Of a stretch of 64,000 bases of DNA, positions 2,672 to 63,214 are shown one piece after another. Made by a program: the position numbers and the translations under genes. Position 1 is the stretch's first letter. Every line of letters starts with the position of its first letter. The notes beneath the pieces are model-generated. The model was not told where the DNA came from. It did not search any database and worked only from the letters and a program-made list of their open reading frames with translations. Source of the stretch: Sutcliffiella sp. FSL R7-0096 (GTDB taxonomy: Bacteria > Bacillota > Bacilli > Bacillales > Bacillaceae_I); contig NZ_CP152003.1 of assembly GCF_038595065.1 (NCBI RefSeq), positions 4,072,001 through 4,136,000 of the forward strand, written 5' to 3'.

Positions 2672-2704
2672 AAATGCGCATCCCTAGCAATAGGATGCGC
2701 ATTT
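2672..2704. terminator. Terminator-like hairpin, left partner of a duplicated pair
   Basis: ATGCGCATCC...GGATGCGCAT forms a perfect stem flanked by A and T runs. A diverged copy of the same hairpin lies at about 2915-2950, and a 210-bp element fills the space between them. Either hairpin could terminate pepA, which ends at 2972. Confidence 0.65.
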
Positions 2705-2914
2705 CAGACTGTTGACAAACTATAAGGTAGTTAGGTTAACTGTTGGAAGAGTTGATCTTCGTTGCAGGAGCTTCGCTTTCCGCGGGCAGTCCGGAAGCCT
2801 CCTCGGGCTACGCCCTGCGGGGTCTTCCATGTCCTTTCCTCCCGCAGGAGTCTTCGCTCCTTCCACTGCGATCAACTAGAGAATATCATTATTTTAAGCT
2901 TTGTCTATACAATG
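2705..2914. repeat. 210-bp hairpin-flanked repeat element, copy A
   Basis: A 210-bp non-coding unit nearly identical (about 95% by eye) to the reverse complement of 12347-12556. The ends are imperfect inverted repeats: CAGACTGTTGACAAAC at the left, and the complement of CATTGTATAGACAAAGC at the right. The interior (about 2749-2880) is a GC-rich palindromic core bounded by GTTGATC and GATCAAC. Similar hairpins flank the unit on both sides. No transposase is encoded. It looks like a non-autonomous mobile element. Confidence 0.8.
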
Positions 2915-7324: not shown

Positions 7325-7494
7325 GGCTTTAATGTTACAGCAAGTAACCAAGTTGATTGTAGTGGAAGTGCGCAGACTCCATCGCGGGAGGAAGGGACAT
7401 GGGAGACCCAGCAGGCTTGCCGAGGAGACTCCCGGACCGCCCCCAGGAAAGCGAAGCACCTGGAACGGAAATCAACTGCTTTATAGAAAAGCAC
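7325..7494. repeat. Repeat element with GC-rich core, copy D
   Basis: The GC-rich core at 7351-7477 (AGTTGATTGTAGTGGAAGTG to GGAAATCAACT) shares CGCGGGAGGAAGGGACATG, GAGGAGACTCCCGGAC and GGAAAGCGAAGCACCTGGA with the other copies in this window. It sits inside outer ends starting GGCTTT and ending AAAGCAC. Flanking octamers AAAATAGA and AAAAAAGA match at 7 of 8 positions and may be a decayed target duplication. Non-coding. Confidence 0.65.
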
Positions 7495-12319: not shown

Positions 12320-12346
12320 AAGCACCCTTCCATTAGAAAGGTGCTT
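12320..12346. terminator. Terminator-like hairpin, left copy of a perfect 27-bp duplication
   Basis: AAGCACC pairs with GGTGCTT, forming a hairpin downstream of the TIMP-like gene. The same 27 bp recur exactly at 12557-12583, with element B filling the space between. Confidence 0.75.
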
Positions 12347-12556
12347 CAGTGTGTAGACAAAGCTTAAAATAATGAAATACTCTAGTTGATCGCAGTGGAA
12401 GGAGCGAAGACTCCTGCGGGAGGAAAGGACATGGAAGACCCCGCAGGGCGTAGCCCGAGGAGGCTTCCGGACTGCCCGCGGAAAGCGTAGCTCCTGGAAC
12501 GAAGATCAACTCTTCCAACAGATAACCTAATTAGTTTATAGTTTGTCAACAGTCTG
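12347..12556. repeat. 210-bp hairpin-flanked repeat element, copy B
   Basis: An inverted-orientation copy of the element at 2705-2914, also exactly 210 bp, with about 11 differences by eye. The ends are CAGTGTGTAGACAAAG and the complement of CAGACTGTTGACAAAC, matching each other at 12 of 16 positions. The interior carries the GC-rich palindromic core. It lies precisely between two identical 27-bp hairpin copies, which look like a long target-site duplication. No coding capacity. Confidence 0.85.
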
Positions 12557-12583
12557 AAGCACCCTTCCATTAGAAAGGTGCTT
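12557..12583. terminator. Terminator-like hairpin, right copy of the 27-bp duplication
   Basis: Identical to 12320-12346. It lies next to the stop of the following convergent gene and probably terminates it. Confidence 0.75.
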
Positions 12584-39504: not shown

Positions 39505-39703
39505 CCGATCAGTAGCCCTCCACTATTAAACCGTCCGTACCGGTCATAATGGCAGTGTTATCCTTATTCAAGATAACCCCAGCAATATAAGTTCGACAGC
39601 CTATATCGCTTCGGCACAGCATCCTTTCTTCTACCATCCTTGGTGTCACCCTCCAGTAGTATTACTCTTATGCTATGCAGCCTCTACCTCATCGTATGAT
39701 AAG
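39505..39703 (-). ncRNA. Lysine riboswitch (L-box)
   Basis: Read on the complementary strand, the conserved L-box blocks occur in order: GATGAGGTAGAGGCTGCA, AGAGTAATAC, GGAGGGTGACACCAAGGATG, TGTGCCGAAGCGATATAGG, TTGCTGGGGTTATC, GATAACACTGCCATTATGAC, GGACGG and GTGGAGGGCTACTG. A terminator hairpin follows at 39446-39482. High lysine would stabilise the aptamer and favour termination, lowering transporter expression. Confidence 0.93.
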
Positions 39704-60159: not shown

Positions 60160-60279
60160 CTCTCATCTATCAAAGCAAATAACTTTACTTTGTGTGAATT
60201 GGCACCATTTCAACAATTCCTTGTTGACGGTTGCCGGGTTTCATCGGGCACGTCCCTCCACCTCTCTCGATAAGAGATT
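60160..60279 (-). ncRNA. SAM-I riboswitch (S-box)
   Basis: Read on the complementary strand, the S-box blocks occur in order: CTTATCGAGAGAGGTGGAGG, GACGTGCCCGATGAAACCCG, GCAACC, AATGGTGCCAATTC, CAAAG and GATGAGAG. P1 pairs TCTTATC with GATGAGA. A terminator follows at 60103-60143. Bound S-adenosylmethionine would stop transcription into metNPQ. Confidence 0.95.
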
Positions 60280-63155: not shown

Positions 63156-63214
63156 AACACCATAGAATGGTGTTCCAGACTGTTGAGGTTATCTGTTGGA
63201 AGAGTTGATCTTCT
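63156..63214. repeat. Truncated copy of the 210-bp hairpin-flanked element, copy C
   Basis: A hairpin AACACCATAGAATGGTGTT is followed by CAGACTGTTGA, then after an 18-bp deletion GGTTATCTGTTGGAAGAGTT and GATCTTC. These match the left end of element B in its complementary orientation. The GC-rich core and right end are missing. The following CAGGTGTTTTC may be the remnant of the right-hand hairpin copy. Confidence 0.7.

Follow-up and report, generated by a model that had tools for sequence, protein, structure and literature searches.

In the 64,000-nucleotide window of the Sutcliffiella sp. FSL R7-0096 genome analysed here (a single contig of 4.9 Mb), a 210-bp element, B (12347–12556), lies between two identical 27-nt hairpins, AAGCACCCTTCCATTAGAAAGGTGCTT (12320–12346 and 12557–12583), which raises the question of what kind of element this is and how the same hairpin came to stand on both of its sides. 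A first-pass annotation, made from the letters of the window, had described B, with inverted repeat ends between identical hairpins; a second element, A, of about 95% identity and opposite orientation between two differing hairpins; and a truncated copy, C, behind a third hairpin. All three descriptions hold, B in its coordinates and its copies, A with 95.2% identity to B and one decayed hairpin, and C at about 63176–63213 behind the hairpin at 63156–63174. The features are as follows.

2672–2704: hairpin copy at A; the unfilled site in relative G004 has one hairpin, with the identical sequence
2705–2914, minus strand: element A, 95.2% identical to B; its joined flanks align with a split of ~209 bp in G009 (filled) and continuously in G004 (unfilled)
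~2915–2950: second hairpin copy at A, decayed by mutation, from comparison with the unfilled site
12320–12346: left hairpin copy at B, terminator-like, 27 nt; in G003 and G004 the orthologous site is unfilled and has a single diverged copy
12347–12556, plus strand: element B, an apparent IS1182-type MITE of 210 bp, with 43 end-to-end copies and no open reading frame above 62 aa
12347–12362, plus strand: left terminal repeat CAGTGTGTAGACAAAG, a motif also found at the ends of IS1182-family elements
12385–12510, plus strand: GC-rich core, belonging to a repeat that is abundant across the genus and occurs also without IS1182-type ends
12541–12556, minus strand: right terminal repeat CAGACTGTTGACAAAC (minus-strand reading), from end-motif search, copy alignment and IS comparison
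12557–12583: right hairpin copy at B, identical to the left copy, followed by a T tract
63156–63174: hairpin adjoining copy C, from the sequence at that copy
63176–63213, minus strand: copy C, truncated, with one terminal repeat and part of the interior left

Used as a query together with its hairpins, B has at least 40 matches in its own genome (40 scored, 235 candidates). The end motif CAGNNTGTNGACAAA occurs 80 times there against once for a reversed control, so that these are copies of an element rather than chance matches. End-to-end alignment yielded 43 copies with 77–100% identity to B, a set in which L046 is counted though ~40 bp of its interior is missing; copy L002 is 100% identical to B across 210 bp, which suggests recent movement. 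The element has the features of a MITE, being short (210 bp), bounded by terminal inverted repeats, associated with a target duplication and present in many copies. The longest open reading frames that overlap it, both on the minus strand, measure 61 and 62 aa. Rfam models at gathering thresholds gave no match at the element and only two riboswitches in the window, lysine and SAM, both on the minus strand (39505–39694 and 60160–60276).

The core of B is related to a GC-rich repeat, GACCC.GCAGG..CGAGGAGGCT, with 12–148 strict-pattern matches per genome in all 16 genomes of the genus; another related copy, at 7351–7477 in the window, has no IS1182-type ends. The MITE thus looks like a pair of IS1182-type ends around a captured copy of this repeat. 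Listed copies of the repeat vary in the apical loop, and the arms seem to stay paired. Counts of the end motif are uneven across the genus, with 222 in G003, 80 in the window's own genome (G000), 79 in G009, 57 in G010 and nine or fewer in each of the other 12 genomes.

The direct-repeat threshold was passed by 40 of the 43 MITE copies, each with a different hairpin, and 38 of these 40 duplications are centred on the hairpin axis; the remaining copies (L036, L040, which is A, and L046) have hairpin-like sequence on either side, differing between the two sides and falling below the threshold. To see the sites in relatives, we queried the joined flanks of 21 of the 43 sites and aligned 32 rows (18 + 14), one of which is partial and three of which, from the own genome, are uninformative. 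An unfilled counterpart with a single hairpin was found at 15 of the 21 sites, including those of A and B, in 22 site-by-genome alignments. A scripted count over 100 nt around the aligned stretch returned exactly one near-copy of the hairpin in 21 of these alignments and none above the script's threshold in the other; there, at the L019 site in G009, a hairpin can be seen but has diverged. In six rows, from genomes more distantly related, the site is unfilled and the hairpin is not conserved. Of the 21 sites, G009, which is the closest relative there, has 10 continuous (unfilled), four split by ~200–220 bp (filled) and seven unresolved. At the site of B, G003 and G004 are unfilled, and the alignment in G009 is likewise continuous. 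At the site of A in G004, also unfilled, the lone hairpin is identical to window positions 2672–2704, so that 2915–2950 is the decayed copy. The relatives thus carry one hairpin and not two, which is what the first-pass annotation had proposed to look for when it read B as a non-autonomous transposon that enters terminator-like hairpins and duplicates them whole, a proposal borne out by both the 40 copies and the 15 unfilled sites.

An element with the same kind of ends that encodes a transposase, likewise suggested at that stage as something to seek, does exist, and it belongs to the IS1182 family. NF033551, the NCBIfam model for IS1182 transposases, scores above its cut-off in six of the 16 genus genomes; searched with this one family model, the window's own genome yielded no intact transposase of the subgroup and only two weak fragments, one of them lying inside a MITE copy and assigned by its adjoining end sequence to another IS1182 subgroup. 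At L061/L049 (C1:1668466–1668854 in the own genome), an apparent remnant of an IS1182 element of the loop-targeting subgroup described below lies within the MITE core. On the S. horikoshii plasmid pBH-BAT-167 (NZ_CP082921.1), L062 has an intact transposase gene (a 448-aa open frame, annotated as 445 aa) between the ends CAGCTTGTAGACAAAG and CAGACCGTAGACAAAC, and is flanked by identical copies of a 30-bp hairpin. The NF033551 scores of L062, L104 and L131 are 477.4, 478.6 and 480.9 bits against a cut-off of 270, and L062 and L131 both match Pfam DUF772 and DDE_Tnp_1_6; a search of solved structures with the transposase profile gave no match at E 0.1.

The same evidence overturns the comparison with the IS1202 group that had first been drawn. 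Among NCBIfam models the transposase matches IS1182 at 477 bits and the next model at 127, no IS1202-named model is among the matches, and the ends read CAG..CTG rather than the 5'-TGT..ACA-3' of the ISAjo2 type of the IS1202 family (in the portion of PMC10132070 available to us); membership in IS1202 was rejected. The long-duplication group of that family likewise makes long duplications, of 16–28 bp, but with another type of transposase, modelled on TnsB of Tn7, and according to the same portion its authors found no specific target for the group (PMC10132070).

A search with the L062 protein across a sample of 397 genomes of the order (E 1e-50, with at most a few candidates scored per genome) gave matches in at least 76 genomes. 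We measured 80 distinct IS loci (L062, L091 and L104–L181), picked from the genus and order matches rather than comprising all of them, and scored a duplication in 67. Twelve of the other 13 fell below the threshold and one lacked ends; re-inspection by eye, which left out L126, L127, L129, L177 and L178, revealed hairpin-like sequence at one end or more in each of eight (L111, L119, L121, L138, L149, L162, L165, L179). Among three further named plasmid copies, L276 (Peribacillus) has a 24-bp hairpin duplication and L277 (Exiguobacterium) has different hairpins on its two sides. The third, L278, is ISEfa7 of Enterococcus faecium, an IS1182-like element with a transposase 58.9% identical to that of S. 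horikoshii and a left end CAGACTGTAGACAAAG; its one copy, which has another IS gene alongside, shows no scorable duplication and no obvious hairpin at the left end. Viral contigs hold four relatives, L273 and L274 with the same 24-bp hairpin duplication and two without a scorable one. The MITE and the autonomous elements have the terminal repeat CAGNNTGTNGACAAA in common, with a good match only over about the outer 16 nt and low identity beyond (17–20 of the first 30 positions in the 12 best IS rows), and we infer that the MITE is cross-mobilized by a transposase of the IS1182 type.

Pooling the 40 MITE and 67 IS insertions with a scored duplication gives 107 insertions, all 107 with distinct duplication sequences. 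Detection relied on terminal and direct repeats and not on palindromes, so the symmetry of the duplications was not selected for. In 101 of the 107 the axis of the hairpin deviates from the centre of the duplication by no more than 1 nt, and in 103 (65 of the 67 IS cases) by no more than 2 nt; the off-centre insertions are L009, L014, L128 and L167, of which L128 (8 bp) and L167 (44 bp, not palindromic) are spurious. Duplication length has a median of 24 bp and a range of 8–44 bp, or 15–42 bp without these two. The mean paired fraction is 0.895 in frame and falls to 0.393 or 0.447 when the frame slides by −1 or +1 base (n = 107). Length follows the GC-bounded core of the hairpin (r = 0.75; 100 of 107 scorable) and shows a plain correlation of 0.51 with maximal hairpin length (n = 107). 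Up to 10 additional pairs lie outside the duplication in 79 of the 102 insertions that are at least half paired; the duplication is therefore not always the longest possible stem, which speaks against a simple rule. Of 214 windows adjoining the hairpin, each of which takes in the final 3 nt of the duplication, 138 contain a T tract (at least five of six positions); 20 nt farther out, 20 of 214 windows do. At 93 of the 107 sites there is one on at least one side. As far as sequence goes, then, the insertions are into palindromic hairpins, mostly with an adjoining T tract as in intrinsic terminators.

That duplications so different in length and sequence are all but uniformly centred on the hairpin speaks for recognition of DNA in folded form. 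We consider it very likely that the MITE moves in trans through IS1182-type transposases of the subgroup with CAG..TGT.GA.AAA ends, and that this movement involves such recognition. In the mechanism we propose, the transposase would recognize folded hairpin DNA, strand transfer would occur at the two 5' feet of a cruciform, and gap filling would then copy the unfolded hairpin on both sides, leaving one on each. The data fit ‘pathway b’ of Wan et al. (2017), drawn in the accessible part of that paper (PMC5678879) as an alternative to the replacement of the hairpin by IS1272, and favour transfer at the 5' feet. Within the same explanation, the target could instead be a hairpin on one exposed single strand, at a replication fork or in a transcription bubble. 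Terminators with a T tract fold readily in one strand, and symmetry is all that sequence data make visible, but the duplication pattern requires that both strands be joined at their 5' foot, and a cruciform places these two feet directly side by side; moreover, the T tract is equally frequent on either side (22 and 22 of the 40 MITE sites, 47 and 47 of the 67 IS sites), with no bias in orientation; we regard this variant as somewhat unlikely.

It is improbable that the transposase reads a linear palindrome, or a protein bound there, and cuts with a variable stagger. The termini of the duplications are indeed biased, with A first in 95 of 107 and T last in 95 of 107, yet all the sequences differ and, the two spurious cases aside, run from 15 to 42 nt while the axis keeps within 2 nt of the centre in 103 of 107. 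We give very little credence to the idea that the elements insert without duplication, or between two hairpins already present, with the doubling arising by other means: one matching hairpin stands at the 15 unfilled sites (22 alignments), which refutes it at those sites, and the two hairpin copies are identical in 65 of the 67 IS and 25 of the 40 MITE insertions. We found no pre-existing pair; at the L022 site in G009, a second, unrelated hairpin lies in a 45-bp insert beside the matching one. Finally, nearly every copy is flanked by hairpins, as it would be if these were part of the element itself, a possibility that the first-pass annotation had raised against its own reading. The 107 insertions have 107 distinct hairpins, however, and the same hairpins occur in relatives free of the element, so that this reading is refuted and its probability is negligible.

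Other IS1182-family elements in the genus leave different traces from those of the hairpin-duplicating subgroup. One group, with ends GAGGCCACTGAAAAA or similar, makes duplications of 8–9 bp (L064–L067, L071, L072, L076, L081, L085); when the joined flanks are folded, the duplication lies over the apical loop in eight of the nine, L071 being off-centre, and the targets are for the most part copies of a single GC-rich repeat and hence not independent. L070 (in G008) and L063 (in G004) are IS1182-family elements without a duplication, and the hairpin that relatives have at the site of L070 is missing. The L070-type transposase is ~50% identical to those of IS1182 and ISSau3, as measured on its near relative L063.

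At the gene end that carries MITE copy L019, a single hairpin stands in G009, and the MITE sits between two hairpins in both the window's genome and G003; G005, G006, G007 and G014 have one such hairpin with a copy of the GC-rich repeat behind it, and in G008 L070 occupies the place where the hairpin would be, without a duplication. Judged from these relatives, the hairpin was probably lost in G008. That the site is unfilled in G009 and filled in the more distant G003 would reflect either independent insertions or clean loss. Signs of all three outcomes are thus seen within one genus, and a single orthologous terminator shows two of them.

A tree of 46 transposases, 43 of them different, separates the duplication outcomes into three groups. 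The hairpin-duplicating group has support of 80/75, which does not reach the program's starred level; the loop group has 100/95, and the two rows without duplication have 100/100. L068 stands alone, ISEfa7 (L278) and L277 were placed in the hairpin-duplicating group by their ends alone, and the program warns of long branches meeting. Each of the three outcomes corresponds to one branch of the model of Wan et al. (2017), as given in the accessible part of the paper. We tentatively suggest, as a possibility falling somewhat short of even odds, that one structure-guided reaction on a cruciform underlies all of them, with the clade setting the outcome: joining at the 3' feet would lose the hairpin, joining at the 5' feet would duplicate it whole, and joining in the loop would give 8–9 bp.

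Parts of this picture are already known. In the passages of PMC4923244 and PMC5678879 available to us, IS1272/TnSha1, of the IS1182 family, targets hairpins, several of them confirmed terminators, with no sequence consensus, and IS1272 deletes or replaces the hairpin without a duplication. The elements here, by contrast, duplicate the whole hairpin, a duplication being present in 40 of the 43 MITE copies and at 67 of the 80 IS loci. Duplication of the whole hairpin (pathway b) and of the loop (pathway c) is drawn only as model branches in what we have of Wan et al. (2017; PMC5678879). Some IS1182-family members are said to target palindromes, without detailed data (Siguier 2015, as cited in portions of PMC5678879 and PMC4923244), and a palindromic or hairpin target is likewise found at the IS loci here. 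The excerpts at hand also state that the action of IS1182-related transposases may or may not duplicate or delete the target, which can be a sequence or a DNA structure (2025; PMC12056078), and tabulate a 4-bp duplication for ISPse1 of the same family (PMC3281130).

NF033551 is common to the IS1182 family and the autonomous partner described here, while the subgroup, its ends, the exact centring and the MITE are absent from the passages seen of PMC5678879, PMC4923244 and PMC12056078. In the sections available of a review of prokaryotic MITEs from 2024, terminator-like elements are mentioned, whereas IS1182 and hairpin duplication are not (PMC10969869). No report of whole-hairpin duplication as an observed outcome was found in the open-licence literature searched; as far as that search goes, the systematic duplication of whole hairpins, the subgroup that makes it and the MITE are new. 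DDE transposases generally make a fixed stagger and hence a duplication of nearly fixed length, in contrast to which the duplication here would be set by the fold of the DNA. A published but untested model branch thus becomes directly testable, with more than 100 natural events to draw on.

With a terminator-like hairpin left on either side of the element, insertion next to genes could do almost no harm. Most of the autonomous elements that we examined also bring hairpins of their own, which face inward and look like terminators. A strong hairpin (z below −3 against single-base shuffles) is present at both ends in 45 of 46 distinct IS end pairs, compared with 1 of 138 internal windows. At the left end the helix begins with nucleotide 2 in 38 of 46 and has a T tract behind it in 44 of 46, so that the left ends look like inward-facing terminators; at the right end a T tract follows in only 15 of 46. 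The MITE has no end hairpins of this kind, which suggests that they probably serve as insulation and are not needed for movement. At L272, near position 1436, the end of an element abuts the hairpin end of another IS, as if the hairpin of that IS had been the target.
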